Assembly: GCA_903868145.1 (NCBI GenBank)
Contig: CAIPTY010000015.1
Coordinates: 79,029 to 143,028 of the forward strand
Direction of reading: 5' to 3'
Length of the DNA stretch: 64,000 nucleotides
Source of the DNA: an uncultured Desulfuromonadales bacterium
Lineage (GTDB): Bacteria; Desulfobacterota; Desulfuromonadia; Geobacterales; Pseudopelobacteraceae
In this document: positions 49,798-64,000 of the stretch, piece after piece
Layout of the letters: every line of letters starts with the position of its first letter
Numbering within the stretch: position 1 is the stretch's first letter
Made by a program: the position numbers and the translations under genes
The notes under the pieces: generated by a model
The model's input: the letters and a program-made list of their open reading frames with translations, nothing else
Told to the model about the DNA's origin: nothing
The model's database searches: none

Positions 49798-51675
49798 GAG
49801 GGACCCGAGCGGGATATACACGATCTTCCGGTCAAGCCGGGCGGCCATCTGTTTGAAGATGCTGCGGGGCGGCCTGCCCGCCACGTAGACAACGTGCTTT
49901 TCCGGTGAGTAGTCCAGAGCCGCCATCAGCAGCACTTCGGCCTGTGACATGCTCCCGCGGTAATCGGGGTCGTTCCAGACATCCATCATGCGCCGGGGCG
50001 GATAGGAGAGCAGAAAACCACCGTATTCGCAGCGGCAGATGCCGGGGCCGACGATATTCTCGGCCGGATCGGTGGCATAGAAAGCCATGTCAGATTCCTG
50101 CTCGTGTTCCCCCAGCCAGGTCATACTGTAGGGGAATTTTTTGCTGCCGCGATCATCGTCAAAAATCACCACCACGCACCCCACCCCGCCTTTGGCCCGC
50201 TGCTTCTCCCGGACATAGATCGAGCCTTCGTGGATATTTCGCAGAGTCTCCCGCAGATCGATGCCGTCAAGCATGGATGAGGTGAACTTTTCGCAGCGGG
50301 TCAGCTCTTCGGAGAGCTGCATGCTCCCTCTGCGCTTGAGGAAATGCCCGTATCCTTCGATGGCCAGATCTTCGGGCGGATAGGAGCAGATCGAGGGATC
50401 ATCGAACCCTTCAAGCCATTCACCGGGGTGCCGCTCGCGCCTGCGCTTGAGAAAACCCAGGTGCGACAGCCCCTTGTGGCGTTTCTGGCGGGGGCGGAAA
50501 CGGATCTGGCGGCTGCCCCCCCAGATCTCTTCGGGCGAGATGCTGATCGTTGCCAGGTCGCTCTCGACGTTCTGCCAGGGATGGAAGGTAGCCAGACGAT
50601 AGAAGGCGTAGGCGAAGTTATCGTCGACGCAGCCTCGGGCGGCGGCCAGAAGTTGAAACAGGTCGGGCAGCAGCATACCGCACGACAGGGCGTAGTTTCG
50701 CGCAAAGCGGAAGAAGGCCCGTTTCTGCCAGACCCGGATGGTTTCGCCGGTCTCCTGACGATACTGCCGCGCCGCCTGACCGAAGAGCAGATAGATGATG
50801 CGCTGCCGATCGGGAAATGTGCCCTCCGACCCCAGGCGACGGGCGCTGCCCCGGATGGCATCGTCCAGCAGCCGCTCCTCGGGGATATCCTGCCTGCCGC
50901 CGTTAATAAGCTCCAGCGCGTGAAAGCGTTTGCGCAAGCCGTTCGCCTGCTCGACAGGTTCGGCGGGCAACGCTGAGCGCCGGTATTCGTAGATCGCCGC
51001 GAGAAACGGGAACTCGGCCATGATCTCGCGGCAGGAATCCGGGTGCAGATTCCAGACCGTGACCCCGTCGCGCCGGATCCGTTCCAGCGGCGCGGCCTGC
51101 GGGAGGTCGAACATACCCCGGATCCGTTCCAGATGCGCCATGCCGCAGATAAACAGTATGCGCTCATGACGCTTTGACAACTGCTGCAGGCGAAAGGCCA
51201 TGCCCTGTTCACGGCGCAAGTCCTCCCGTCCGGGAGATTCCTTGCCTCTCGCGCCCAGATATTCGCGGTAATAGGCCGTCAGTCCGATGCGGCAGATGCT
51301 GTAGGAGTCGGGCAGATGATCGGGGATGCGGGGATACCCGTCTATGTCCAGATCGATCAGATGGAGAGGTATGTCTAACTCCAAGGCTTGTCGGCCCCCC
51401 TCAACCAGGGGGTCGGCGGACTCCACCAGCAGATAGGTTGTCCCGGTTGGTTTTTTACCGGCACCGCTCGGATAGCTTATGACCGAGACCTGCGGCAGCC
51501 TGCCCAGCGCCCTCAGAAATGGTGCTTCGAGGGTTGCAGGGAGTTCTATGGCAATTGCATCCGGCCTGATCTGCCGTACAGCCTGACGCACCAATTGGGC
51601 AAACTCCATGCGATAATGCAGTACCGGCAGGGCATGGATCGGGCCGAAATGCTCCAGGTACAAGCGGTGCGGCAT
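49711..51675 (-). CDS. Unknown 654-residue protein paired with MoxR
   Basis: The N-terminus, LYLEHFGPIHALPV, then PDAIAIELPATLEAPFL and later LFICGMAHLERIRGMF, resembles TraB/ChaN-like or DUF5682 proteins, which often accompany MoxR ATPases. No catalytic function can be named. The rest is charged and mostly helical, with a GVGCVVVIFDDDRGSKKFPY segment. It starts three bases after the MoxR stop (same strand), so they are an operon. Confidence 0.45.
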   Translation of the reverse strand: MPHRLYLEHFGPIHALPVLHYRMEFAQLVRQAVRQIRPDAIAIELPATLEAPFLRALGRLPQVSVISYPSGAGKKPTGTTYLLVESADPLVEGGRQALELDIPLHLIDLDIDGYPRIPDHLPDSYSICRIGLTAYYREYLGARGKESPGREDLRREQGMAFRLQQLSKRHERILFICGMAHLERIRGMFDLPQAAPLERIRRDGVTVWNLHPDSCREIMAEFPFLAAIYEYRRSALPAEPVEQANGLRKRFHALELINGGRQDIPEERLLDDAIRGSARRLGSEGTFPDRQRIIYLLFGQAARQYRQETGETIRVWQKRAFFRFARNYALSCGMLLPDLFQLLAAARGCVDDNFAYAFYRLATFHPWQNVESDLATISISPEEIWGGSRQIRFRPRQKRHKGLSHLGFLKRRRERHPGEWLEGFDDPSICSYPPEDLAIEGYGHFLKRRGSMQLSEELTRCEKFTSSMLDGIDLRETLRNIHEGSIYVREKQRAKGGVGCVVVIFDDDRGSKKFPYSMTWLGEHEQESDMAFYATDPAENIVGPGICRCEYGGFLLSYPPRRMMDVWNDPDYRGSMSQAEVLLMAALDYSPEKHVVYVAGRPPRSIFKQMAARLDRKIVYIPLGSLSPLKLKQIRVMHILAGKDKREIAREYIW

Positions 51676-51678
51676 CGG

Positions 51679-52497
51679 TCAGCCCAGGTATGGCAGGGCT
51701 TCATCGCCCAGTATGCGTTGGACAGAGAGCTTGAGAAGGTCGGTGGCTGGCTGCGAACCTGCGGCAGCCATCTTGAGGGCGTAGCGCGCGATGTTGATGC
51801 CGTCCCGCACGGAATAAAGCTCATCCGCACGGTGGGAACGCTGGAGGAAGGTTACCACGTAGGAGAGAATCTCCCCGTCGGAAAACGGCAGGTTCTCCTT
51901 CAGAATCTGCAGTTCCTCATCGGCCTCGGGAAAATCTATGTAGATCTGTGGTTGCAGGCGGGAGTGAATGTATTCGGGCAGCTCGAAGGTCGAGGCATCC
52001 TCGTTCATGGTGACCACAATCCGGAAATCCTGCTGAGCCGGGATGCGCAGGCCGGTGACGATCGATTCCACATAGCGGCGGTCGTCCAGCAGGGGCGCCA
52101 GGGAGGCCCAGGCCTTTTCGCTCATGCGGTTGCCCTCGTCCAGAATCAGCACGCCGCCTGACAGCATGGCCGATACAAGAGAAGACGCGCTGTACTGGAT
52201 TTTGCCATCCGGGCCGATCACCGGCGAGATGATCAGGTCCTCGGGCCGGGTGTCCATGGTTGCCTGGTAGAGGAATACCGGCCGGCCCAGGCTTATGGCA
52301 GCGGCGTACGCCAGGGTGGTTTTCCCGACCCCCGGCTTGCCCACCAGTCGCGGGTTGAAGGGGATGTCACGCTCATCAATGACCATCCAGGCCGCCAGCA
52401 ACTGCCGCAGCAGTTCATCCTGCCCGACCCATTTCAGGGGGAGTTCCACGGAACCGGCCAGAGAGAGAGTTATGCCGTCAATGGTTGTCTGCTTCAT
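51679..52497 (-). CDS. MoxR-family AAA ATPase
   Basis: A 272-residue ATPase: Walker A GKPGVGKTTLAYAAAI, Walker B GGVLILDEGNRM, sensor 1 VTMNED and an arginine-finger region SRLQPQIYIDFPEADEE. MoxR proteins act as chaperones in metal or cofactor insertion, often with VWA-domain partners; the partner here is the unknown downstream protein. ATG at 52497 is chosen because the AAA fold begins there and AGGGAAATCG is upstream. Confidence 0.85.
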   Translation of the reverse strand: MKQTTIDGITLSLAGSVELPLKWVGQDELLRQLLAAWMVIDERDIPFNPRLVGKPGVGKTTLAYAAAISLGRPVFLYQATMDTRPEDLIISPVIGPDGKIQYSASSLVSAMLSGGVLILDEGNRMSEKAWASLAPLLDDRRYVESIVTGLRIPAQQDFRIVVTMNEDASTFELPEYIHSRLQPQIYIDFPEADEELQILKENLPFSDGEILSYVVTFLQRSHRADELYSVRDGINIARYALKMAAAGSQPATDLLKLSVQRILGDEALPYLG

Positions 52498-52692
52498 ATC
52501 GATTTCCCTATCCTTAATTTTCTTGTCACGTATCCTGCCGACCCGTTGTAACGCACCCCACGGGATGATGCAAGAGAGATTGCCTCTGCGCAAAAAAACT
52601 TCCTTCGCTTTCATTCTGTGGCCGGCCATGCTATAAAGGCTTCCATGGAGAGATCCGGCTTGAAACACCGGTATCAGACGGGAGGCATTGCC

Positions 52693-52995
52693 ATGCTTAA
52701 AGAAAAAATTATGAAAATGGTGTTCAACCACAAAATGGAGAGGTACGCCCGAATGCTCAAGCTCGAAATCAGCAGGGATGACAAGTCCATTTTACTGGAA
52801 GTTCTGCCGAATGGCGAAAGCAACCCGATCCAGATCACCATCGGACACTACGAAATTCTGACGGGTGAAAAGAATGGAATCCGAATCAGCCATATTCGTA
52901 CCTCACGGCAATGGATGACGGAACTGATCCAGACCCTTGCTCCCGAGCATTTCATTGCCTTTGAAAATGTCAAGCTGTTGAAACTGATCCTCTGA
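52693..52995 (+). CDS. Small conserved-looking protein, unknown
   Basis: A 100-residue basic protein starting MLKEKIMKMVFNHKMER. It is soluble, with beta-rich ISRDDKSILLEVLPNGE and ITIGHYEILTG stretches. No family is recognised. GGGAGGC precedes the ATG at 52693. It lies upstream of the magnetosome-like cluster on the same strand but is separated from it by a 226-base gap with a promoter, so it is probably a separate unit. Confidence 0.6.
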   Translation: MLKEKIMKMVFNHKMERYARMLKLEISRDDKSILLEVLPNGESNPIQITIGHYEILTGEKNGIRISHIRTSRQWMTELIQTLAPEHFIAFENVKLLKLIL

Positions 52996-53221: not shown

Positions 53222-53806
53222 ATGGGTAAAACAGGGGTTTTTTTCAAAGGTTTGCTCAATGGTGTGGCAACGATGCTGAATGCAAGCGGTTCCGCACTCG
53301 TTTCCATGTATGACACGGGGGAGTTTGTGGTCAATCGTGCCCGCACGGCTGTGCTTCCCTGCGAAAAAGCACGGCTTGAACGGAGGATAAAAGAGTACGG
53401 CACCAGAATACTGGCTCTCCAGTATGAGATCGGCAAGGAAAGCGCCCGCTGTTCGGATCCCTCCGAGGTGGTTGAATCGCTGGAATTGCGGGCCAATATC
53501 GCGAGGGTGAGGGATTGCGAAGCCGAAATTGAAACAATGAAGCGGCGTCTGCTCGAAATTGCCGAATCAAAAGAGGCGGCCAAAGCAGAGAAGAAGGCGA
53601 AAAAAAATAAAAAAAAGAAAACGGCCCCCGCCACAGTGACACAGGAAACCGCCGATGAATCCCCGGTAGCCGAAGCTCAGACGGTTGTTTCCCCGGCAGT
53701 CGAAGCGCCTGCCGTGACCGAAGAGGAGCCAGTCGCTGAAAAGAAGGAGGATGCTGATATATGTCAGGCCTCTGACTGTTCCTGTGGCACCCATGCTTCT
53801 GCGTGA
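53222..53806 (+). CDS. Coiled-coil protein A of the magnetosome-like cluster
   Basis: A 194-residue protein: a mildly hydrophobic N-terminus (KGLLNGVATMLNASGSALVS), then a charged helical region (EKARLERRIKEYGTRILAL to MKRRLLEIAESKEAAKAEKK), a Lys-rich strip and an acidic Ala/Val/Pro/Glu tail ending with three Cys. The helical core resembles that of the gene at 58082, so the two are paralogues. Phasin-like size and shape suggest binding to a membrane or granule surface, which is inference. The ATG at 53222 has AAAGGAG eight bases upstream. Confidence 0.7.
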   Translation: MGKTGVFFKGLLNGVATMLNASGSALVSMYDTGEFVVNRARTAVLPCEKARLERRIKEYGTRILALQYEIGKESARCSDPSEVVESLELRANIARVRDCEAEIETMKRRLLEIAESKEAAKAEKKAKKNKKKKTAPATVTQETADESPVAEAQTVVSPAVEAPAVTEEEPVAEKKEDADICQASDCSCGTHASA

Positions 53807-53870
53807 GCGTGCCGCTCACCGGCGCGTAAAATTTACAGACCATCCACGTAACTCCTTATACTGATAGTGC

Positions 53871-53898
53871 TTGACTTTGAGTCGGCCATATTTTAAAA
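53871..53898 (+). promoter_or_regulatory. Weak promoter-like site before the VWA gene
   Basis: TTGACT (53871-53876) and TTAAAA (53893-53898), 16-base spacer, in the 129-base gap after coiled-coil protein A. Confidence 0.3.
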
Positions 53899-53935
53899 CG
53901 GTACACTCAAAATATTGCCGTGGAGCACGTAACGC

Positions 53936-54703
53936 ATGGAAGCACTGGATGAAAAGAAGGAAAAGCTGTTCCGCAAGATACGTGAGCGGGAGGAACATCT
54001 AAAAAACGACCGTCTTTTTGTGAATTCCACGCTTGATATCGTATTTGCCATTGATACCACCGGCAGCATGGATCCGTTCATAAACGAGGTTCAGGACAAC
54101 ATCCACCGCATCATCGAAGACATCCTCGAATTCTCGCAGGGAGTCAGAATGGGCGTTGTTGCCTACAAAGATCACGGCGATGAAGGCGAAGACGAGTTTT
54201 ATCTGACGAAAATACTGCCGCTGACCTTTGATAAAAAAGAGATCATTCAGTTTGTCCGTTCTCCCGATCTGCACATCGGCGAGGGGGGTGACGGCCCGGA
54301 AGCGGTTGAATGCGCCCTGTATGAAGCTGTTAACTTCAACTGGAGTTCATCGGCTCCCAAGGTCGTGGTACTTGTCGGAGACAAGCCTCCGCACGGTGTC
54401 ATCGACAGCTTTCGCGCCTGTAACCGGATGCGCGATTACCGCAAGGAAGTCGAGGCGCTGAAAAACAAGGGGGTCAGGATTTATCCGATCCTCTGCAACA
54501 AGATCCAGGAGACCGAGGGCAGCTTCCGCTGGATGGCGCAGGAAACGGGGGGAGAGTTCATCTATCTCCACGAGATATCCAACCTGAGTGACCTGCTGAT
54601 CGGGATCTGCCTGAAGGAGACCGGTAAATTGTCCCTGTTCAAGAACAAGCTGATCGCGTACGGCGAGACCTTGCGGATTGAGCATATCAAGCTGCTTGAA
54701 TAA
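53936..54703 (+). CDS. Von Willebrand factor A domain protein
   Basis: A 255-residue cytoplasmic protein. A charged helical start (EALDEKKEKLFRKIREREEH) leads into a VWA domain with the metal-dependent adhesion motif DTTGS (in IVFAIDTTGSMDPF), the conserved Thr/Asp region GGDGPEAVECALYEA and the strand VVVLVGDKPPHG. It likely mediates metal-dependent protein contacts. Its place between coiled-coil genes and mamK suggests an assembly or linking job; no mam name is known to me. Confidence 0.8.
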   Translation: MEALDEKKEKLFRKIREREEHLKNDRLFVNSTLDIVFAIDTTGSMDPFINEVQDNIHRIIEDILEFSQGVRMGVVAYKDHGDEGEDEFYLTKILPLTFDKKEIIQFVRSPDLHIGEGGDGPEAVECALYEAVNFNWSSSAPKVVVLVGDKPPHGVIDSFRACNRMRDYRKEVEALKNKGVRIYPILCNKIQETEGSFRWMAQETGGEFIYLHEISNLSDLLIGICLKETGKLSLFKNKLIAYGETLRIEHIKLLE

Positions 54704-54728
54704 CGGCTGTTCGAAAAAGGAGCCTGTT

Positions 54729-56372
54729 TTGAATACCAAAAATTCAACTATGACTTCCAATGATTTTGCCGATCACGAAAACGGTCTGGCGCGGGTCGGA
54801 AAATACACCGCGGCCACGCTGGAGTTTGCCAGTCTGGCTGCCTCGGGGATATACAAGGCAGGCGAGGCGGGCTTCAGGCAGCTTTTTACCGGCAAGAAGT
54901 CGTCGAAGCGCAGTGAGAGCGTTCCAAAGGTTATGAAAAATGTCTTTGTGGAAACGGTTAATGAAACTGCCTTGGCCGAGAGGCTTAATCCATCGGGCGT
55001 CGCTTCGGTGTCCGGTCTTGAAAAGATTGCTGATCTGGAAAGAATGATCGAGATCGAAAAACGGATCAATCTGAAAAAGATGGCTGATCTGGAAGGGATG
55101 ATCGAGCTTGAGAAGCGGAACAACACTGAAAAGATAACCGAGTTGGAGAAACTGATCAATCTGGAAAAAAGAACCGACCTTGAGCAGCGCAACGACCTCC
55201 AGAAAATGATCGATCTGGAAAAAAGGAACAATCTTGAAAAGGTGCATGAGCTGGAAAGCCGGATTGAGATAGAGAAACAGAATAATAGAGAAAAGATGAA
55301 CGATCTTGAGAAGATCGCCGAGCTTGAAAAAAAGATCGAGTTTGATAAAATTGCGGAACTGGAAAAAAGAATTACAAGGGAAAGCAGGGCTGACGGGAAT
55401 ACAGCCGACGCGGGCAGGGTTGTGGGGCTTGAAGGCCGGATCGAACTGGAACGGATGACCAATCTCCAGAAGATGAGTGAGCTTGAGAGCAGGCTTGAGC
55501 GCGAGAGCAGGAGTATTCTTGAGAAACTGGTGGACCTTGAAGCCAGGATTCATCCTGAATCAGCCGCCTCCTCGTTTTCGACCCTGTCGAGCAGTTCCGA
55601 CATTGAAAAGATCGTCGAGCTTGAAAAGCGGCTTGAGCAGGAAAGAAGGAACAACCTGGAAAAGCGGCTTGATCTGCAGAACAAAATTGAAACGGACAAA
55701 AAGAGCAGCTCGGAAAAAATAAGCGTACTGGAAAAACGCCTGGCCAGCCTTGACGGGAGGCTGCAGGCGATTGAAAACAGAGGCCCGCACTCCCTTCATG
55801 TCATGGCTGAAATGGCGGCCATCGACAAGGCTCGCGCTGCTGAAACCCAGGAACTGGAAAGGCTGGTGGTTCTGAAGGCCAGGGATGAAAGCAAAGCGTT
55901 GGAAGCTCAGGCCGAACAGGGGCGATTGGCGGCACTCAAGGCGATAGAAGACCTCAATGCTGCCGAAGCAGCGGCGCTAGTGGCTGAACAGGAACGCAAC
56001 ACGGTATCGGGGACGGTGACGTCCGCACCACCGAAAAAAGGCGTCGTAAAAAATGCTGCCTGGAAGAAAGAGCAGGAACGGCTGGCCGCGGAAAAAGCCG
56101 AGAATGAACGCCGCGCTGCACTGAAGGTTGAAGAGAGCCGCAAAATTGCCAAGGCTGCGGCGGCGGTTGCCGAGGAGGCGCGGGTAATCGCACAGAGACT
56201 GGAAGAGGAACGCCTGGCCGCAGCTGCCGAGGCCACTGAAAAAGCCCGTACGAAATTCGCGGTTCTTGGCAGGCAGAGTATTTTGGGCGGTCTGGTCGAA
56301 ACCAATAAAACATACCATGAAAATAAATCCGTTTCTGGAACTAAAAAAACAAAGGGGGGAACACTTAAATGA
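54729..56372 (+). CDS. Long helical repeat protein upstream of mamK
   Basis: About 547 residues. After a short N-terminal region with a possible membrane-binding helix (YTAATLEFASLAASGIYKAG), residues 99-347 are built mainly from an 18-residue repeat of the form K-h-x-(D/E)-L-E-x-x-I-x-h-E-x-x-x-N-x-E in three blocks. The last 180 residues are an Ala/Glu/Lys-rich single helix with a short Pro-rich break. A TTG start at 54729 is preferred since AAAAAGGAG sits six bases upstream; an ATG at 54750 lacks such a site. Just ahead of mamK, it could be a magnetosome-filament linker like MamJ or the Mad coiled-coil proteins; this is by position and shape only. Confidence 0.75.
   Translation: MNTKNSTMTSNDFADHENGLARVGKYTAATLEFASLAASGIYKAGEAGFRQLFTGKKSSKRSESVPKVMKNVFVETVNETALAERLNPSGVASVSGLEKIADLERMIEIEKRINLKKMADLEGMIELEKRNNTEKITELEKLINLEKRTDLEQRNDLQKMIDLEKRNNLEKVHELESRIEIEKQNNREKMNDLEKIAELEKKIEFDKIAELEKRITRESRADGNTADAGRVVGLEGRIELERMTNLQKMSELESRLERESRSILEKLVDLEARIHPESAASSFSTLSSSSDIEKIVELEKRLEQERRNNLEKRLDLQNKIETDKKSSSEKISVLEKRLASLDGRLQAIENRGPHSLHVMAEMAAIDKARAAETQELERLVVLKARDESKALEAQAEQGRLAALKAIEDLNAAEAAALVAEQERNTVSGTVTSAPPKKGVVKNAAWKKEQERLAAEKAENERRAALKVEESRKIAKAAAAVAEEARVIAQRLEEERLAAAAEATEKARTKFAVLGRQSILGGLVETNKTYHENKSVSGTKKTKGGTLK
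55023..55769 (+). repeat. 54-base / 18-residue coding repeats
   Basis: Six full units and a partial in register from 55023 to 55385, two and a half units from 55416 to 55550, and three from 55608 to 55769. Example unit: KMADLEGMIELEKRNNTE. DNA copies have diverged, so this is an old protein repeat. Confidence 0.85.
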
Positions 56373-56623
56373 GTGACGTGACCGCTGAGAAAGAATCTTC
56401 TGAAAGTTGTGGATGTTCATTTGTTGATGCTGACACCGTATACCGGGCTGGATCAATCGTTGGGAAAACGGCCGCCGGGCTTGGTCTGGGTGTCGTCGCA
56501 GGGATAGGCACGGTAATCGTGGCATCCGCTGTTGAGGTGCTGGTGCCGGCTTTTCTGGTATTGAAGGCTTTTGGGTTGACCGGTGGAGCGCTGGGCTTTT
56601 TACAGGGGCTCAAAAAAAGTTAA
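56369..56623 (+). CDS. Small glycine-rich membrane protein
   Basis: An 84-residue protein. After an acidic start with SCGCS, two hydrophobic segments rich in Gly and Ala follow (TAAGLGLGVVAGIGTVIVAS and a second around VLVPAFLVLKAFGLTGGAL). Gly-rich small membrane proteins are common among magnetosome proteins (Mms5/6, MamG, MamD type), but the exact LG repeat is not seen. ATG overlaps the stop of the repeat protein gene (ATGA) and follows AAGGGGGGAA. Confidence 0.65.
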   Translation: MSDVTAEKESSESCGCSFVDADTVYRAGSIVGKTAAGLGLGVVAGIGTVIVASAVEVLVPAFLVLKAFGLTGGALGFLQGLKKS

Positions 56624-56634
56624 TCGGCACGCCC

Positions 56635-56663
56635 TTGAGTGTACGTGAAATCCGTGGTATCTC
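56635..56663 (+). promoter_or_regulatory. Weak promoter-like site before mamK
   Basis: TTGAGT (56635-56640) and TATCTC (56658-56663), 17-base spacer. It could give mamK and the genes after it their own expression. Confidence 0.3.
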
Positions 56664-56733
56664 ATATATCTGTTAACACATTTCCCGCTGGGCCTTAAGT
56701 GCTTCAGTGCTGAGTAAAGGGAGGACGCAAATT

Positions 56734-57792
56734 ATGGCTGAACAGAAGGTTTTGAATGTGGGGATTGATTTTGGCACATCAAAGAGTGTGATTGCCTGTG
56801 ATAACGGCTTGCGGATATGTGTTCCGAGCTATGTCGGTTTTCCGAAAGACACCATATCGAAAAAAATGCTGGGAAAAGATGTGCTTTTTGGAGAGGAAGC
56901 TCTCAAGCACCGCCTGGCTCTGGACCTCTACAGACCCCTGGATGTGGGAGTTCTGAAGTATTCCAGCGAACCTGAGAAATTTCCGGCCGAATACCGGCAG
57001 ACCACGGATATCGCCCGGCGCCTGCTGGAGCATCTGATCAATCTGGTAACCGAAGGGAAGCCGGAAGAATATTCGATCCGTGGCGTCATCGGAACGCCTG
57101 CCCTGGCGACCCAGAAAAATAATCAGGCATTGATCGAAATAGCGGAAGGCCTGCTGGATTCGGTTCTGATCGCCTCCGAACCCTTTGCGGTTGCCTTCGG
57201 CCTGAACATGCTGAATAACACGCTGATTATTGATATCGGCGCCGGCACGACCGACCTCTGTCGCATGCACGGTTCCTTCCCGACGGAAGAGGATCAGATT
57301 ACCGCCAGCAAGGCTGGCGACTATGTGGACCAGGTGCTGTTTAGCCTGGTGGCAAACAAGTATCCGGAAGCAAATTTCACCGTCAACATGATCAAGAATT
57401 TCAAGGAAGACAATGCGGTTATTTCCGGCAATGACGAAAAATTGCTGATAACCCTTCCGATCAAGGGCAAGCCGACCGAGCTTGATGTGACGGACGAGCT
57501 GAAGCAGGCCTGTCGTTCGATAGTTGTGGAGATTGTGGCCGGTATCGATCACCTTGTCTCCACCTACGATCCGGAGTTCCAGGACGAGTTGAAGGAAAAC
57601 ATCATCCTTGCCGGTGGCGGCAGTCAGATCATCGGCTTGCGCGAAGAGATCGAGCGGCATATGAATGAGAGCCTTGGTTATGGAAAGGTACGGAAAGTGA
57701 CCGATTCTGTCTATGCCGGGGCTAATGGCGCGCTGATGCTGTGCAAGGAGATGCCAGAAGAGTACTGGTCCGAATTGAATCAGCCTGCGTAA
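56734..57792 (+). CDS. mamK: MamK-like bacterial actin
   Basis: A 352-residue actin homologue; MamK forms filaments that line up magnetosomes. Phosphate 1 is IDFGTSKSVIACDNG, phosphate 2 IDIGAGTTDLCRMHG, adenosine motif LAGGGSQIIGL. Beyond the shared actin motifs, several stretches look specifically like MamK as I remember it: SYVGFPKD, DQITASKAGDYVDQVL, DVTDELKQACRSIV, and the end EMPEEYWSELNQ. ATG at 56734 has AAAGGGAGG upstream; a GTG at 56707 would add nine residues. Closely followed by mamL. Confidence 0.9.
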   Translation: MAEQKVLNVGIDFGTSKSVIACDNGLRICVPSYVGFPKDTISKKMLGKDVLFGEEALKHRLALDLYRPLDVGVLKYSSEPEKFPAEYRQTTDIARRLLEHLINLVTEGKPEEYSIRGVIGTPALATQKNNQALIEIAEGLLDSVLIASEPFAVAFGLNMLNNTLIIDIGAGTTDLCRMHGSFPTEEDQITASKAGDYVDQVLFSLVANKYPEANFTVNMIKNFKEDNAVISGNDEKLLITLPIKGKPTELDVTDELKQACRSIVVEIVAGIDHLVSTYDPEFQDELKENIILAGGGSQIIGLREEIERHMNESLGYGKVRKVTDSVYAGANGALMLCKEMPEEYWSELNQPA

Positions 57793-57825
57793 GTGTCTTT
57801 TCAAAAATTAGAACTGGTACCGTAT

Positions 57826-58041
57826 ATGAAATATCTGGTTTCGCTCATTTGCCTGTTCCTGTTTCTGGCGGTTATCTTTCTTGACCAGAACAGCACCCCT
57901 GTGCCGATGAAGATCATCATCGGGAACCCGCACGGGATCAGGCTCAGCCTGATTATCATAGTCAGCATGCTGATTGGAATGCTTCTGGCAATTGGCGGCA
58001 TGCTGCTGATTAAAAAAGTGCAGACAAAGAACAAGAGCTAG
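57826..58041 (+). CDS. mamL: MamL-like membrane protein (LapA fold)
   Basis: About 71 residues with two membrane helices and a basic tail (KKVQTKNKS), like MamL, which shapes the magnetosome membrane in magnetospirilla. The pattern FLDQNSTPVPMKIIIGNPHG between helices is that of LapA/DUF1049 proteins. The start is uncertain: ATG at 57826, or GTG at 57793 directly after the mamK stop; neither has a strong ribosome site. A plain LapA protein is the alternative, but the position next to mamK favours MamL. Confidence 0.7.
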   Translation: MKYLVSLICLFLFLAVIFLDQNSTPVPMKIIIGNPHGIRLSLIIIVSMLIGMLLAIGGMLLIKKVQTKNKS

Positions 58042-58081
58042 CACGAAAAACTGCGTAAAATAACGAATGAAGGGTGGTAGT

Positions 58082-58444
58082 ATGGCTGCAGATTTGAGGT
58101 ATAACCTTCAACATGTTGGAGACACTTTTGCCAGTGTGCTTGAAAAAACGGTTGATCTGGCAAAAAACAGCGCGCGCGGCATTTTTGTGACCTATGACAT
58201 CAATAGACTCGAGCGCACCAAGCGTAATCTGCTCCGCGAAATAGGCGGGCGGGTGGCGCACCTGGCGAGCGAAGGCCTTACCGATGTGAGGCGGGATGAC
58301 AAGCTTGCTTCGCTTATGGCCGAACTCGCTGCTATCGACAAGGAAATTCAGTCCCATCAGGTCAAACGTGACGAGATGCTGAAGTCGTGTTCATCCAGAA
58401 CGCCTGCCACCGAATGTTCCTCTGAAAATCAGACAAAGGAGTAA
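58082..58444 (+). CDS. Coiled-coil protein B, paralogue of protein A
   Basis: A 120-residue helical protein. RLERTKRNLLREIGGRVAHL, then DDKLASLMAELAAIDKEIQSH mirrors RLERRIKEYGTRILALQYEI and the following helix of the gene at 53222; it lacks the acidic tail of that protein. An ATG at 58082 (MAADLRYNL) has AGGGTGG upstream and is preferred to 58067. Position between mamL and mamP. Function unknown. Confidence 0.7.
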   Translation: MAADLRYNLQHVGDTFASVLEKTVDLAKNSARGIFVTYDINRLERTKRNLLREIGGRVAHLASEGLTDVRRDDKLASLMAELAAIDKEIQSHQVKRDEMLKSCSSRTPATECSSENQTKE

Positions 58445-58447
58445 ACC

Positions 58448-58618
58448 ATGTCAAAAGTCCTGTTGGGCGTTTTTGTAGGCGTTTTTGTGGGTGCCTTCAC
58501 CTATGAGCTAATCAACAAGCTGAATCCGGATCTGGTCAGAAAATTTGAAGCCAAGGCCTCTGAAAAAATCAACGATCTGCTCGATACCGAGAGTGAGAAC
58601 GTGGTGCGACCGGCCTGA
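58448..58618 (+). CDS. Small single-span membrane protein
   Basis: A 56-residue protein: MSKVLLGVFVGVFVGAFTYEL forms one Gly/Val-rich helix, followed by a charged tail with KFEAKASEKINDLLD. The shape recalls YtxH-type or small magnetosome proteins, though no family is assigned. CAAAGGAG lies upstream. Its stop overlaps the mamP start by one base (TGATG), so translation is coupled. Confidence 0.65.
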   Translation: MSKVLLGVFVGVFVGAFTYELINKLNPDLVRKFEAKASEKINDLLDTESENVVRPA

Positions 58619-59664
58619 TGAAGTACATAAAGCATTTGGCAAATCCCATATTCATGTTTCTGTTGGTCTGTACGTTTGCCTATACCTATTTTTTCTATCT
58701 TGGCGACAATGGCCCGCGCAAGAAACGGGATGCTGAGAATGGGAAACCGGTCAGGGTTGTACCGAATCCGGTAGTTTCTGTTGGAACACAGCCAACCGTG
58801 GTAGACGCCAACCCCTTTAACTTGCGCGGCAAGCCCGGACAGCCCGCTCTGGATGCTGACAATCCATTCAGTATACGCACTGCGCAACCGGCGGTTCCGG
58901 CACCGGACGAAGAAAATCCCTTCAACCTCGGAAGAGGCAGGGGGCAGATGGCCACTCCGGGGGGAGAACAGTTCTTCAACCAGCAGAATCGCCAGCACCC
59001 TCTGGTCATGCCCGAAGAGAATCCCTTTGCCCCCACGCGACGCAAGAAGGTCAATATGCCTCCGAGCCAGGCCCAGAATCCCTTCGGTGTGGCACCGGCA
59101 GCGGCTGTGCCACAGGAACCGACCGGTAAGTTCGTGCTGGAAGGACACTGGATCGGGCTGGAGGTGATTCCCCTTACTCCGGCCATCGCCAAGGCCAATA
59201 ATATCCCGACCAACATCCGGGGTGTGCTTATTGACGAGGTCACGCTGGTGTCCGCCAATGCTGGTATCCAGGCGGTTGACGTCATAACCGCCATCAACGA
59301 CGCGCCGGTAGTTGACCTGCGCTCGTTCAGGCTGGCCACAAAGCCGGTAGCGCTTTCCACACAGGCGACGGTCACCGTTTATCGCAACGGAACCTACCGG
59401 AATATCCCCGTCGTTGCGGCCGAGGAACTTGGGATCGCACAGTTGGAAGGCGCCCCTATGATACTGGCGACCGCCCGCAGTCCGCATGCTTATTACGGCC
59501 CGTGTGTAAACTGTCATGCCATTTCAAAAACGCCTACCAATACCAACCAGATGGCGAAAGATATGGGCGATGCGCTCACAAAGATTGCGCCAAACATTCG
59601 TCGGGGAACTCTCGCCCCTCACCGGGACAGAGGCGCCTGTAGCACATGTCACGTAATTCTCTGA
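58618..59664 (+). CDS. mamP: MamP-like PDZ and magnetochrome protein
   Basis: A 348-residue protein anchored by one N-terminal helix (about residues 8-28). A 130-residue linker holds five NPF motifs (ANPFNL, DNPFSI, ENPFNL, ENPFAP, QNPFGV). A PDZ domain spans about residues 172-262 (GVLIDEVTLVSANAGIQAVD). The end has two c-type haem sites of the magnetochrome pattern: SPHAYYGPCVNCHAI (Cys296, Cys299, His300) and APHRDRGACSTCHVI (Cys341, Cys344, His345). In magnetospirilla MamP oxidises iron to balance the Fe(II)/Fe(III) ratio for magnetite. The long NPF linker is unusual. Confidence 0.9.
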   Translation: MKYIKHLANPIFMFLLVCTFAYTYFFYLGDNGPRKKRDAENGKPVRVVPNPVVSVGTQPTVVDANPFNLRGKPGQPALDADNPFSIRTAQPAVPAPDEENPFNLGRGRGQMATPGGEQFFNQQNRQHPLVMPEENPFAPTRRKKVNMPPSQAQNPFGVAPAAAVPQEPTGKFVLEGHWIGLEVIPLTPAIAKANNIPTNIRGVLIDEVTLVSANAGIQAVDVITAINDAPVVDLRSFRLATKPVALSTQATVTVYRNGTYRNIPVVAAEELGIAQLEGAPMILATARSPHAYYGPCVNCHAISKTPTNTNQMAKDMGDALTKIAPNIRRGTLAPHRDRGACSTCHVIL

Positions 59665-60563
59665 CCCCGTGCGGTAGCACAGAAACGTCGGAATGTATCG
59701 CCTGCTCGAAAAAAGTAGGCTGGTTTGCCGTCTATGCCAACCTTGCTCTGGCACTGTTCAAGGCCTTTATCGGCTATATCAGCGGCAGTAAGGCAATACT
59801 GGCCGACTCGCTGTTCTCGTTCAAGGACTTTGTGACGTCCCTGGTTGTCGTTGCCGGCATCAAGGTATCCGGGAAGCCGGCTGACGAGAATCATCCCTAC
59901 GGGCATGGCAAGATAGAGTTCGTTGCGATGCTGATCATGAGCATCCTGCTGATCATCGCAACCACATTTTTGTTCATACATTCCGTCAAAGGGATCTGGC
60001 AGAGTTTTCACGGTGAGACCTACGTCCCGAAGTTTATTGCCTTCTGGGCGGCAATAATTTCTGTTATTGCCAACTACAAGATTTCGACCTATCTGCAATG
60101 CGTCGGCGAGAAGCTCAAAAGTCCGGCGGTCCTGGCTAATGCCAAGCACAGCCATTCTGACGCAATCTCATCGGCGCTGGTTGCGGGTGGTGTACTCGGC
60201 ACGCGTCTCGGTTTCTTTTTTCTCGACCCTCTGGTGGCCGCGGTTGAAACCGTTGACCTCATGCGCCTCAGTATTTCCATGTTCAAGGAATCGCTGCACG
60301 GTCTGTTTGATGCTTCTGTCGATGCGGAAATTCTGGGTAAGATCGAAGCAACCGCGCGGCTGGTTCCCGGTGTTCGTAGGGTGTCGCGGGTGACAGCCCG
60401 CCAGTTGGGACAGAGCATCTGGATTGATATTACGATAAAGGTAGATCACCACCTCAGCCACCAGGATGGGCATTTGATAGGCCTCCATGTCAAGGAGAGT
60501 CTTCACGGCCTGTTCAATAATGTTTCGGGAGTTCACCTGACCGTAGAACCATTCATGCCATGA
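59646..60563 (+). CDS. mamM: MamM-like cation diffusion facilitator
   Basis: A 305-residue CDF protein that would carry iron into the vesicle, probably as a complex with MamB. N-terminal CIACSKKVGWF resembles MamM's CxxC start; the helix 2 site reads LADSLFSFKD, with Phe where MamM has Tyr46, and helix 5 reads KHSHSD (His and Asp kept). Loop motif HPYGHGKIEF is identical in style to MamM. The C-terminal cytoplasmic domain is present (IWIDITIKVD, with the Trp that binds metal in MamM). The start overlaps mamP by 19 bases. Confidence 0.9.
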   Translation: MSRNSLTPCGSTETSECIACSKKVGWFAVYANLALALFKAFIGYISGSKAILADSLFSFKDFVTSLVVVAGIKVSGKPADENHPYGHGKIEFVAMLIMSILLIIATTFLFIHSVKGIWQSFHGETYVPKFIAFWAAIISVIANYKISTYLQCVGEKLKSPAVLANAKHSHSDAISSALVAGGVLGTRLGFFFLDPLVAAVETVDLMRLSISMFKESLHGLFDASVDAEILGKIEATARLVPGVRRVSRVTARQLGQSIWIDITIKVDHHLSHQDGHLIGLHVKESLHGLFNNVSGVHLTVEPFMP

Positions 60564-61222
60564 ACGAAAGTAACTGGCTTGCAAAACTTTTTTCGGTCAG
60601 CGGAGCATCATTCAGTTCTATCCAAAGTAATGTCCGTGAGTTGTTGCGCAACTATGATCTTGAGCATGGCGGAAAGCCGAGACGCTATGCCTCGTATAAC
60701 GTCAGCAGCAGGCTGATCAGGAAGGCAGCCTTCAAAACGGGAGCTTTTGGCGGCTTGGTAAGCGCGCCGGCAACTCTTCCGGGTATCGGTACACTGGGCA
60801 CTCTGTTCGTGAGTATCAGCGCTGACATGGCCTATCTGATCAGGACCCAGATCGAGCTCTGTTACGCCATATCCGTTGCCTATGACGTGGAGATGGATCT
60901 GGACGAGTTAAAGGCTGTGACCGTTGCACTGCTCGGTTTTTCCGGCAGCGCCGAGGCGGTCAAGGGGGTTGCGGCCCGGAGTCTGCGCAGCGTTATTGAC
61001 GAGCTTACCAGGGTCTACATAAGCAAGGGAGTCCCTGATTCGGCGGCAGAAATTTCTGCCAGACTGTTGCCACGATACGCCGGAAGGGCATACAAAATAC
61101 TCCCGTTTCTGGGAATGCCCCTGTCCGCGTCCATAAATATCACGTCTACCATGATGGTAGGTAATCAGGCCCGTAAATACTTCAGCACCTGGGAAGAATT
61201 CCCGGAGCCTCTGGCGGAGTAA
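60560..61222 (+). CDS. EcsC-like protein in the magnetosome-like cluster
   Basis: A 220-residue protein. The Ala/Gly-rich TLPGIGTLGTLFVSISADMA block, followed by an IELCYAIS helix, and the later MPLSASINITSTMMVGNQAR resemble the EcsC family, of unknown function and usually membrane-linked. It has a four-base ATGA overlap with mamM, so it is surely translated in the same unit. I cannot assign a mam or mad name. Confidence 0.6.
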   Translation: MNESNWLAKLFSVSGASFSSIQSNVRELLRNYDLEHGGKPRRYASYNVSSRLIRKAAFKTGAFGGLVSAPATLPGIGTLGTLFVSISADMAYLIRTQIELCYAISVAYDVEMDLDELKAVTVALLGFSGSAEAVKGVAARSLRSVIDELTRVYISKGVPDSAAEISARLLPRYAGRAYKILPFLGMPLSASINITSTMMVGNQARKYFSTWEEFPEPLAE

Positions 61223-61228
61223 TCAGGT

Positions 61229-61774
61229 TTGAAAATTACCAGGCTGCATGTCATGTTGTTCGCACTTTCGTGGTGTTGTATCGCTTTGCCGGCCCGGTTG
61301 GTTCATAACGAGTTCGTGGATGAAGAACACCGTCTCCACATCGCTTTTGGCAAGCTGGAAGTTGAAAAGAAACGCCGCCAGGAGCTGGTTGCTCAATGTA
61401 TCGAAGCCGTGCAGAGCTATCGGGATCTGGAACAGAGGATTCACCGTAAGATCGTCGAACTGAACGGCCAGACCCATCGACGCGGGACGGTCGCTCTCAA
61501 GACTGAGAACCTCACCAGCATCATTGGCCTGATTGGTGAAATGGAGATACTGCTGGAGCGGTTTCCGACTCTGCGATCAAAGGATCCCTATGCGCTTTTG
61601 ATGGAAACGATCCAGCACGCGGGTCTGCGGGTCACGAACGCCCGCTTGGAGTTTAACAAGAGAATCTACGAATACAACGTAATGTGCAGGATGTTTCCCT
61701 ATCGGGGCTTTGCCATGATTTTCGGGTTTGACGAGGTCTTATACACGGACCATCTGGGGCACAAGGCATTGTAG
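61229..61774 (+). CDS. mamQ: MamQ-like LemA-family protein
   Basis: A 181-residue LemA-type protein: one N-terminal helix and a long four-helix bundle outside. LemA features are VEKKRRQELVAQCIEAVQSY, ERFPTLRSKDPYALLMETI and the end YNVMCRMFPYRGFAMIFGF. MamQ is a LemA protein needed for vesicle formation. The start is a TTG at 61229 (MKITRLHVML) or an ATG at 61253. A stray LemA protein is possible in other settings, but here it lies between mamM and mamB. Confidence 0.8.
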   Translation: MKITRLHVMLFALSWCCIALPARLVHNEFVDEEHRLHIAFGKLEVEKKRRQELVAQCIEAVQSYRDLEQRIHRKIVELNGQTHRRGTVALKTENLTSIIGLIGEMEILLERFPTLRSKDPYALLMETIQHAGLRVTNARLEFNKRIYEYNVMCRMFPYRGFAMIFGFDEVLYTDHLGHKAL

Positions 61775-61825
61775 TGTTTATTGGAGCAATCGCTTGAACC
61801 ACGTATTTGCAACGAAAAAGGACGT

Positions 61826-62533
61826 ATGAAATTTCCCGAATGTGAAAGCTGCGGCACTAAATCGGCGCGATGGAGCTTCGTCGGTAACCTGCTTGCCGCT
61901 ATCTTTAAGGTTGTGCTCGGAACCATTACGGGCAGTAAGGGACTGGTGGCTGACGGGGTGCATTCCGGAGCGGACGCCCTGTCCTCACTGTTGATCCTTG
62001 TGGCGCTCAACATTTCCGGTCGCCCGCCAAGTGAGCGTCACCCGTTCGGCTATGGCAAGGTGGAGTACATCAGCACCCTCTGCGCCAGCCTGTTTCTGTT
62101 TGTGGGCGCCAGCAGCATTTTTGTCGATGCGTTGCACACATTCGGACAGGGTGTGCAGAAAGTCCCCTCAAATGCTGCCTTGCTGGCTACTCTGCTGTCA
62201 CTGGTATTCAGTTATCTCATGTATACTTCCAACAAGTGCGCCGGCACCCAGCTCGGCAGTCCGGCGCTGCTTGCGGATTCAAATGAGAGTAAGGCCGACA
62301 GCATTTCGTCACTCGCCGTTCTCTGTGGGCTTATCGGCACCAAGATGGGTTTTGTCTACGCTGATACGGCAGCAGCGGCCTTTGTATCGCTGTTCATCTT
62401 TCGCATGAGCGTAGAGATGTTTTTTCAGGGGATTCACGGCCTGATAGATACCGCCATGGACAAAGAGGACATTGACCGTATTACCGTCGTGAGCCTGACC
62501 ATCGACGGCGTAGAGGGGGGGTCAGATCGGTAA
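61826..62533 (+). CDS. mamB: MamB-like cation diffusion facilitator, truncated by frameshift
   Basis: The first 235 residues match MamB. It starts MKFPECESCGTKSARWSF (MamB has a similar CxxC beginning), has the ADGVHSGAD metal site in helix 2, HPFGYGKVEY, and SNESKADSIS in helix 5, and six membrane helices. The reading frame runs into a stop after seven G at 62515-62521; the missing C-terminal domain continues in another frame to 62718. A one-base gain or two-base loss would give a ~297-residue protein, the normal MamB length. ATG at 61826 has AAAAAGGAC upstream. Confidence 0.85.
   Translation: MKFPECESCGTKSARWSFVGNLLAAIFKVVLGTITGSKGLVADGVHSGADALSSLLILVALNISGRPPSERHPFGYGKVEYISTLCASLFLFVGASSIFVDALHTFGQGVQKVPSNAALLATLLSLVFSYLMYTSNKCAGTQLGSPALLADSNESKADSISSLAVLCGLIGTKMGFVYADTAAAAFVSLFIFRMSVEMFFQGIHGLIDTAMDKEDIDRITVVSLTIDGVEGGSDR
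62515..62521 (+). repeat. G7 tract at the mamB frameshift
   Basis: Seven consecutive G at the exact place where the CDF reading frame changes. Eight (or five) G would restore the gene. Confidence 0.9.
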
Positions 62534-62718
62534 AGAGTCGCCGCATGGGCCAGAAAAGCTGGGTTGATATCATCATTGATGTATCCATGAAGAAGAGTGT
62601 CCTGGATACCCATATCATCTCCGAACACGTACGCGAACTTATTATGGAAAATGTTGACGGAATTGCCGGTGTATCGGTAAGTACCTTTCCCATCAACAAA
62701 TGGGGGATAGGCATTTGA
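62522..62718 (+). pseudogene. C-terminal domain of the mamB-like gene in the shifted frame
   Basis: Reads MGQKSWVDIIIDVSMKKSV and on to GVSVSTFPINKWGIGI, the cytoplasmic CDF domain, aligning with the mamM C-terminus (GQSIWIDITIKVD). It would be made only by frameshifting, a tract-length change or internal start at 62545. Its stop overlaps the next gene. Sequencing error is an alternative. Confidence 0.8.
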
Positions 62719-63119
62719 TTCGAAATCCGGAAGAGGTAAGTGAACTATGCGGGATGCTGTCGATGGTTTTGTTTGTTTCGGCCAATGCCTATTATCCGGC
62801 GAGACTGATAGCAAACAGGTTCAAGCCATGGTCGCGTGAAACAACCCTTTTTTTCAAGAAGTATCTTGATATCCACATGCTGCTCAACCTGATTGCACTG
62901 TTTACGTTGACTCTGCACGGCCACTATGCACCGGCAGATGAGCGTAACATTATACTTTCAGCCAGTTTCGTACTGACAGTCTGGCTGGTGTTCGCCGGTT
63001 TGCTGATGCGCTACAATGTCTTCCACAGCATGAAAAAGCAGATGCGCCTGATCCACACCCAGCAGACCCTGTTCGTAGTCTGGCTGATTCTGATACTTCT
63101 GGGACATTCAATCGGTTGA
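62715..63119 (+). CDS. Four-helix membrane protein with paired histidines
   Basis: About 135 residues, four hydrophobic helices. Histidines lie as H-x13-H in DIHMLLNLIALFTLTLHGH and as H-x16-H in IHTQQTLFVVWLILILLGH, on two different helices, a pattern that can ligate two b-type haems as in ferric-reductase-like or cytochrome b561 domains. It could pass electrons to or from the periplasm-side magnetochromes. Start may be ATG 62700 or TTG 62715, the latter overlapping the stop of the shifted mamB frame (TTTGA) and following GGGGG. Confidence 0.65.
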   Translation: MIRNPEEVSELCGMLSMVLFVSANAYYPARLIANRFKPWSRETTLFFKKYLDIHMLLNLIALFTLTLHGHYAPADERNIILSASFVLTVWLVFAGLLMRYNVFHSMKKQMRLIHTQQTLFVVWLILILLGHSIG

Positions 63120-63170
63120 GCGAGAGCCACCGGTTTCAACCTACACTAACAACATCTTACGGAGGCAGGC

Positions 63171-63815
63171 ATGGATTTAAAAGTTGATTTAAGCGAGTTC
63201 CAGTATTTTTTCAAGGTTATCTCCAAAAACACCGTGAAACTGATCGACAAATCGGTTGATGCCTACAACAGCATGTTGGAGCTTGATCCCGAAGAGTCGA
63301 AAGAGATTCACCTGGGCATGGGAGAAAATCTGGAAAAAAAGGGGAACTACGAAGGAGCCATCAGGATCTATGACAAGATTCTGCTTACCGACCCGAATAA
63401 TGTCTCCGCACTCTTCAAACTGGGAAAAATCTACACACAACTGGGGCTGCTCAACAAAGCCATCGAAGTGCTGAGAAAGGTAACCGTTCTTGACAGAAAC
63501 TTTGCCGAGGCATTCTATCTGCTCGGCTCGGCGCTTTTTTCCGTCGATGAAAACAGGGAGGCGCTGGACGCCCTCAACCGTGTAATAGAGCTTAATCCGG
63601 GCAATGCTGATGCTTTCTACAAACTCGGCCTTATCAACGATGCACTTCTCAAGCCGGATTCCTCAATTGAGGCATACCTGAAGGCCATCACCTTCCGGCC
63701 GGATTTTGTCAAGGCTTACCAGAGTCTCGGATTTGCCTACGAAGCAAAGGGTATGCGGGATGAGGCGGTTAAATACTTTAAGAAATCGCTGGAACTGGAA
63801 GAGAAGAACAAGTAA
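63171..63815 (+). CDS. mamA: MamA-like TPR protein
   Basis: A 214-residue protein with five or so TPR repeats (for example GNYEGAIRIYDKILLTDPNN, GLLNKAIEVLRKVTVLD, MRDEAVKYFKKSLELEEKN), close to the 217 residues of MamA. MamA coats magnetosomes and is a protein-binding scaffold. The order of repeats and the long pre-TPR helix resemble MamA more than generic TPR proteins. GGAGGCAGGC precedes the ATG. Confidence 0.85.
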   Translation: MDLKVDLSEFQYFFKVISKNTVKLIDKSVDAYNSMLELDPEESKEIHLGMGENLEKKGNYEGAIRIYDKILLTDPNNVSALFKLGKIYTQLGLLNKAIEVLRKVTVLDRNFAEAFYLLGSALFSVDENREALDALNRVIELNPGNADAFYKLGLINDALLKPDSSIEAYLKAITFRPDFVKAYQSLGFAYEAKGMRDEAVKYFKKSLELEEKNK

Positions 63816-63869
63816 TTCAACCGCACCATTTACCATACAAAGGGAAATAAACTTCAAGGAGGAGTTCAC

Positions 63870-64000
63870 ATGTTAAGCATCGTTTTCGGTCTCATTGCAA
63901 TCTGCCTCGGCTTCTGGGGTCTGATCAAGTACTGGTGGTACATGGTCGATCTGCTGGTCGCCATTCTGCCCCTCGTTCTGATATTCAGCGGTATCGTCGC
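63870..64000 (+). CDS. mamI: MamI-like small membrane protein, cut by the window end
   Basis: The first 43 residues are visible. FGLIAICLGFWGLIKYWWYM then LVAILPLVLIFSGIV closely follows the MamI pattern of two helices with a double-Trp between them. MamI is required for magnetosome vesicle formation. AAGGAGG seven bases upstream supports the start. The 3' end lies beyond 64000. Confidence 0.85.
   Translation, partial: MLSIVFGLIAICLGFWGLIKYWWYMVDLLVAILPLVLIFSGIV

Follow-up and report, generated by a model that had tools for sequence, protein, structure and literature searches.

Magnetosome gene clusters built from mam, mad and man genes have been known in the Pelobacteraceae since 2020, when Uzun et al. 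(PMC7449369) reported three metagenome-assembled genomes (MAGs) and placed their clusters close to the Nitrospirota, in a subgroup assigned to magnetite; our comparison includes two of these MAGs, MAG_13126_9_058 and MAG_21600_9_004, as G026 and G038. A man1-mad26 cluster is described from the Nitrospirota themselves (PMC8353452, PMC9376291), and Desulfovibrio magneticus RS-1 likewise has mad10, mad23 and coiled coils that arrange crystals in chains (PMC12748827). Here we analyze a stretch of 64,000 nucleotides (the window), which ends contig CAIPTY010000015.1 (C15) of a Geobacter-related bacterium; the source genome is a 3.8-Mb draft of 103 contigs, 97% complete. We take its family to be the one called Pelobacteraceae in the literature. 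Judged from its genes, the run at positions 53222-64000 is a genuine, nearly complete magnetosome gene cluster and a further member of the kind already known from this family. We assign a probability of roughly 0.88 to the reading that it is a mam-mad-man cluster that likely directs the formation of magnetite crystals enclosed by membrane and arranged on a MamK filament.

The open reading frame listing gives a run of 15 genes, all on the plus strand, separated by short gaps or joined by stop-start overlaps, for example mamP/mamM (59646 versus 59664) and mamM/mad31 (60560 versus 60563). The names man2, mad10, mad2, mamQ-2, mad23-like and mamO-Cter were assigned by position or domain, and Mad31 by database names.

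53222..53806, plus strand: g1, a soluble protein of 194 amino acids (aa) that resembles the N-terminus of the Mad23-like protein on a second contig, C78 (38% identity over 113 columns)
53936..54703, plus strand: g2, a von Willebrand factor A (vWA) protein of 255 aa without a membrane segment (Pfam VWA, 4.5e-13)
54750..56372, plus strand: g3, a long coiled coil with repeated ELEK-type heptads
56369..56623, plus strand: g4, a glycine-rich membrane protein of 84 aa that has two hydrophobic stretches and occupies the man1 position, as read from the Nitrospirota order in PMC9376291
56734..57792, plus strand: mamK, an actin-like filament protein, identified by NCBIfam MamK (452.5 bits, cut-off 400) and by tree
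57793..58041, plus strand: a small membrane protein at the man2 position, LapA-like by a sub-threshold Pfam match and without an NCBIfam hit, called Man2/MamL-like
58082..58444, plus strand: mad10 by position, a soluble protein of 120 aa with matches at the equivalent position in other clusters
58618..59664, plus strand: mamP, with a PDZ domain and two magnetochromes (CxxCH at residues 296 and 341; Pfam MCR, 3.2e-15); NCBIfam MamP is its best hit at 210.9 bits, under the cut-off of 300
59646..60563, plus strand: mamM, a CDF transporter (NCBIfam MamM 377.4 bits, cut-off 350)
60560..61222, plus strand: mad31, EcsC-like; 5 among the 120 relatives listed are named Magnetosome protein Mad31
61229..61774, plus strand: mamQ-2, of the LemA family (Pfam LemA, 2.1e-19; NCBIfam MamQ as best hit, 47.9 bits, 1.1e-12, under the cut-off of 250)
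61781..62533, plus strand: 5' part of mamB, a CDF membrane domain terminated by a frameshift (NCBIfam MamB as best hit, 197.2 bits, under the cut-off of 350)
62515..62718, plus strand: 3' part of mamB, in which the C-terminal domain is read in a different frame from the G7 run (62515-62521) onward
62700..63119, plus strand: mad2 by position, a membrane protein with four long predicted helices and conserved H59, H73, H119 and H136
63171..63815, plus strand: mamA, a TPR protein (NCBIfam MamA as best hit, 144.3 bits, under the cut-off of 200)
63870..64000, plus strand: mamI, cut by the contig end and identified by tblastn and position, with the rest on C78

The nucleotide motifs of MamK are retained, and Pfam finds CDF domains in both MamM and MamB. 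Genes g1 and g3 may stand at the place of mad24-26, a position judged without mad24-26 reference sequences; g3 had no tblastn match at E 1e-3 in the other loci examined. In the N-terminal spacer of MamP (window 58800-59115) the motif NPF occurs five times, and three relatives show 2, 2 and 0 copies.

The last base of the window is the last base of C15. C78 was found by a MamE search in the source genome, and its first 141 bases match the final 141 bases of the window exactly. Its cluster locus (L133) continues with the rest of mamI, mamE (273-2051), mamQ, a beta-propeller-like protein, a protein with a weak J-domain match, a TauE protein, the Mad23-like protein, feoB and a DtxR/FeoA gene, after which come minus-strand sensor genes; over both contigs together the cluster extends for about 20 kb. 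MamE has the protease triad H152, D186 and S261. The TauE protein, which has the domain expected of mamO-Cter, matches positions 370-647 of the MamO model (E 1.7e-10, under the cut-off), the Mad23-like protein has a weak HEAT match, and feoB, which adjoins the cluster, passes its cut-off. The core genes listed in PMC7449369 (mamA, B, M, K, P, Q, E and I) are all found clustered, with mamB frameshifted and with mamE and a second mamQ on C78. The genes, their order, their position in the trees and the extension onto a second contig are direct observations. At the feoA position (L133 8982-9644), the metal-binding domain of a DtxR-like iron-dependent repressor is fused to FeoA, and this gene is a possible iron switch for the cluster. 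At L133 3992-4858 lies a protein of 288 aa with a weak C-terminal DnaJ-like match and relatives in five other loci.

Compared with the clusters of the Pelobacteraceae (UBA8499) MAGs (PMC7449369), which come from the same family and form the sister branch, the gene order is the same from mad10 on; the window's genome falls in another genus of the grouping used, its joined proteins are 57.5-59.9% identical to those of eight other family genomes, and its cluster differs by the long coiled coil g3 and by the frameshift in mamB. The order mamK-man2-mad10-mamP-mamM-mad31-mamQ-mamB-mad2-mamA-mamI-mamE of the man-type subgroup is present in full, and the Nitrospirota man1-mad26 cluster shares this backbone, from mamK through mamQ as far as mamO-Cter and mad23 (PMC8353452, PMC9376291), whereas the upstream vWA gene and the joined feoB and DtxR/FeoA genes set the window apart from it, as may man3, which was not found. 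The gene order of the RS-1 type differs from that of the window (PMC9840458).

The trees agree with this placement. The joined tree covers 10 proteins and 25 clusters (those of 50 locus sets with at least 4 of the 10 proteins, loci repeating the same genomes having been dropped first) and is a quick search with no bootstrap, in which seven Nitrospirota rows, L026 among them, carry a flag for length. The sister group of the window consists of nine clusters, contributed by eight genomes of one genus (g7) of its own family (Shimodaira-Hasegawa-like approximate likelihood ratio test support, 100); two Nitrospirota clusters, L024 (FK1.bin72) and L026 (4_1_Jan_SF_Bin16), join next at 99 and 100, and the other Nitrospirota lie on the opposite side. 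The MamK tree (69 rows) agrees with the joined tree at lower support (88-92): the window groups with P0002, P0003 and P0004, its closest kin, at 100, and next to this group, at 92, come the remaining MamKs of the family; four MreB proteins of the family stand apart, and the window's MamK falls among MamKs of known clusters. The window MamK is 85% identical to P0003, a third-party annotation (TPA) Desulfuromonadales protein that, by elimination, likely comes from the third MAG of Uzun et al. 2020.

These results bear out in part a sequence-only reading of the same DNA, namely its proposal of a true magnetosome-type island: MamK and MamM exceed their cut-offs, the gene order fits, and in the joined and MamK trees the genes nest inside magnetotactic branches, not among generic CDF, LemA and TPR proteins. 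The eight mam genes that it named, on one strand with overlaps, are all there, but its MamL is better called Man2/MamL-like, its MamB is split by the frameshift and its MamI is cut by the contig end. Where it counted eight further genes, we count seven (Mad31, Mad10, Mad2, the vWA protein, the coiled coil, the glycine-rich membrane protein and the protein like the Mad23 N-terminus). It had also taken the group as not known to be magnetotactic, which clusters reported from the family in 2020 (PMC7449369) and 2022 (PMC9376291) contradict, and had allowed for another mineral or a distinct compartment, which is unneeded, since both the genes present and their tree position match a group assigned to magnetite (PMC7449369). 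In the literature searched for magnetosomes together with Desulfuromonadales, Desulfuromonadia, Desulfuromonadota, Geobacter, Geobacterales or Pelobacteraceae, a body of text with most subscription journals outside it, the works found besides the two by Uzun et al. were a lake study, whose passages name magnetotactic bacteria in a reference only, and two sediment studies.

Of the 76 family genomes, nine have MamK (E below 1e-60), one among the four of the window's genus and eight among the 39 of g7, and the cut-off of the curated MamK model is passed by 6 of 97 genomes, the window's own included. Two genomes of the family, G110 (L134/L135) and G111 (L137/L138), have two MamK genes each; both are drafts with 6-7% contamination. 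Independent acquisition by the window's genus, suggested by a cluster much more diverged from those of the family than the markers are, was considered and not borne out: the ratio of cluster to marker log-identity is 2.36-2.61 in the eight pairs of window and family genome, inside the range of 1.10-3.19 for 28 g7 pairs. Rates within the family are compatible with a single ancestral cluster and many losses.

Several observations weigh against the reading of a magnetosome cluster. MamK is missing from three of the four genomes of the window's genus, and resolution deep in the MamK tree is poor, with 22 of its 65 inner branches starred. The NCBIfam matches of MamP, MamA, MamQ, MamE and MamO fall below the curated cut-offs; MamO is present solely as its TauE part, no separate MamO protease reading frame having been found in the cluster on the window and C78. 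Between mad10 and mamP, which are 173 bases apart, man3 was not found, as judged without a man3 reference sequence, and mamB is frameshifted in the present assembly.

The frameshift bears on whether the locus is a relic, from a strain that recently stopped making magnetosomes once mamB had lost its C-terminal domain. MamB stops at 250 aa, immediately after seven consecutive G (62515-62521), whereas all 21 other clusters with a MamB match of at least 250 bits encode 289-313 aa, and absence is common in the family, 67 of the 76 genomes being without a MamK match. However, the lost domain can still be read in the other frame, where it is conserved, continues to 62718 and aligns well with those of relatives; the remaining cluster genes have open frames, and a seven-G run is prone to assembly or sequencing slips. 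Error, decay or slippage could each account for this break, and because mamB is frameshifted the cluster is only putatively functional in the source genome; we regard a relic as unlikely, though with a real chance of being correct. That the cluster was brought in from another organism in the sample by a binning or assembly error would be conceivable for a draft of 103 contigs, but the same 143-kb contig has two genes with copies 72-87% identical in the family, the tetranucleotide profile of the cluster correlates with that of the rest of the contig at 0.85, and MamK and Mad31 at 93-95% identity appear in protein clusters whose longest contig is a different one, of 299 kb. Such an error is very improbable.

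Greigite or some mineral other than magnetite is an improbable product: the cluster stands in the tree with man-type clusters whose Pelobacteraceae members belong to the magnetite subgroup, even though some Deltaproteobacteria clusters are assigned to greigite (PMC7449369). There is next to no chance that we are dealing with generic CDF, LemA, TPR and actin-like genes that merely resemble mam genes. Each of these folds is common by itself, but MamK and MamM exceed their family cut-offs, magnetochrome domains are present, and the fit of gene order and trees to magnetosome clusters refutes this explanation.

The cluster may also have moved between phyla. As species markers we used gyrB and initiation factor 2 (IF-2), because only 20 of 27 genomes gave an rpoB match, and the genome of the window and the other three of its genus were among those that did not; G003, on an odd long branch, was in no pair, G118 was omitted as split, G001 was without gyrB, and G120 was represented by gyrB alone. 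The window's genome and G113 (FK1.bin72) are 53.6% identical in markers and 61.0% in clusters, whereas for the eight family genomes markers are 80.1-81.7% and clusters 57.5-59.9% identical. Over the columns common to the window and L024, identity to the window amounts to 61.0% for L024 and to 57.5-60.4% for the nine family clusters; gene by gene the picture is mixed, with MamK, MamM and MamP nearer L024 and the vWA protein nearer the family. The G113 cluster is 61.0% identical to the window, compared with 52.6% to Ca. Magnetobacterium and 52.9% to Ca. Magnetominusculus, and rpoB places G113 and G114 firmly with the Nitrospirota. Since the window cluster is slightly nearer one Nitrospirota cluster than those of its own family, exchange of the cluster between phyla would be implied if the Nitrospirota bins are right. 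They may be misbinned, because their cluster contigs are short (13.4 and 11.1 kb). Tetranucleotide comparison (L024 versus G113, 0.65, and versus the window's contig, 0.64; L026 versus the window's contig, 0.69, and versus a sample of its own genome, 0.62) does not decide between transfer and misbinning.

The vWA gene g2 is found in the nine of 76 family genomes that have MamK, within 5 kb of mamK in all nine, and in the same nine of 277 genomes of the class, a sample that the MamK search covered in part. Among the Nitrospirota, it is also present in L024 and L026, the two clusters that join this branch, and in none of the other loci examined, several of which are cut near mamK. In an alignment of 44 of the 179 relatives found (120 listed), the residues of the metal ion-dependent adhesion site (MIDAS), D40, T42, S44 and D149, are invariant in 44 of 44. 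The predicted fold has a mean predicted local distance difference test score (pLDDT) of 89 and a predicted template modeling score of 0.84, and it matches integrin beta chains (best Foldseek E 7.7e-10, template modeling score about 0.6). Other listed relatives carry names from Syntrophales, Acidobacteriota, Nitrospirota and, at 44% identity, a Phormidium, and we would not regard this wider family as magnetosome specific.

A vWA domain with a MIDAS site is also present in McaA of Magnetospirillum magneticum AMB-1, which acts with McaB and MamK in magnetosome placement (PMC9512821). The two proteins differ in motif (DxTxS in g2, DxSxS in McaA) and in architecture: McaA has a predicted signal peptide, a periplasmic vWA domain, a membrane segment and a cytoplasmic C-terminus (PMC9512821), whereas g2 is soluble, with no hydrophobic segment in a simple hydropathy scan. 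By domain likeness, which does not imply common origin, g2 may work like McaA. In the texts available that join magnetosomes with von Willebrand or VWA, we found the McaA works and otherwise unrelated papers, one of which, on vWA beside FtsZ-like genes, mentions MamK in passing. We tentatively suggest, with more doubt than confidence, that g2 is an unrecognized obligate part of the Pelobacteraceae-type magnetosome, in which metal-dependent adhesion would link MamK, the Mad10 and Mad23-like proteins and the crystals, and that it is a cytoplasmic and independent counterpart of McaA, which travelled between Desulfuromonadia and Nitrospirota together with the rest of its cluster.

All 17 Mad2 sequences compared have H59, H73 and H136, and 15 of the 17 have H119. 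The model (pLDDT 90.7) has H59 and H73 on one long helix and H119 and H136 on another, a spacing that resembles that of two-heme b cytochromes. Comparison of the fold was not decisive; from model and histidines, Mad2 is likely a membrane b-type cytochrome. The RS-1 mad2 mutant makes rare odd particles and is without magnetic response (cited in PMC8353452).

A working scheme can be drawn from established work on these protein families. MamI, MamQ and MamB would curve the inner membrane to form a vesicle, which MamM, MamB and the cluster's own FeoB would load with iron and MamA would coat. MamE, with its protease triad and one magnetochrome, and MamP, with two, would process proteins and set the ratio of Fe(II) to Fe(III), perhaps aided by Mad2 as the predicted cytochrome. 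Mad10, the Mad23-like protein, the coiled coils and MamK would align the crystals. The soluble g2 accompanies MamK in all nine family genomes that bear a cluster, and we predict that it takes part in this positioning through metal-dependent protein binding.

Adjoining the cluster is a MoxR-type ATPase gene with a 654-aa partner (window 49711-52731), a pair conserved in family genomes. Of the genes flanking the cluster, the MoxR-type ATPase is found in 11 of 13 genomes of relatives and the aldo/keto reductase of the far side in 2 of 13; the neighbors differ among the nine stretches compared, in which a clean insertion site could not be demonstrated, and there is no tRNA anchor within the window. 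Promoter and terminator counts are at or below those of shuffled controls. The source genome has two flagellin matches.

This locus adds a magnetosome cluster on a long contig with clear family genes, in a lineage related to Geobacter in whose family MamK is patchy. What is new is the vWA gene inside the cluster, which co-occurs with MamK in the family. Published views differ on how such clusters are inherited, mainly vertically (PMC7602337) or with horizontal transfer between phyla (Uzun et al. 2022, PMC9376291), and the window, if the Nitrospirota bins are right, would be a further case for exchange of a whole cluster between phyla. Two testable parts can be named, the vWA gene that travels with MamK in the family and Mad2; if Mad2 is a membrane cytochrome, as is likely, this would suggest why the RS-1 mad2 mutant fails in normal mineralization.

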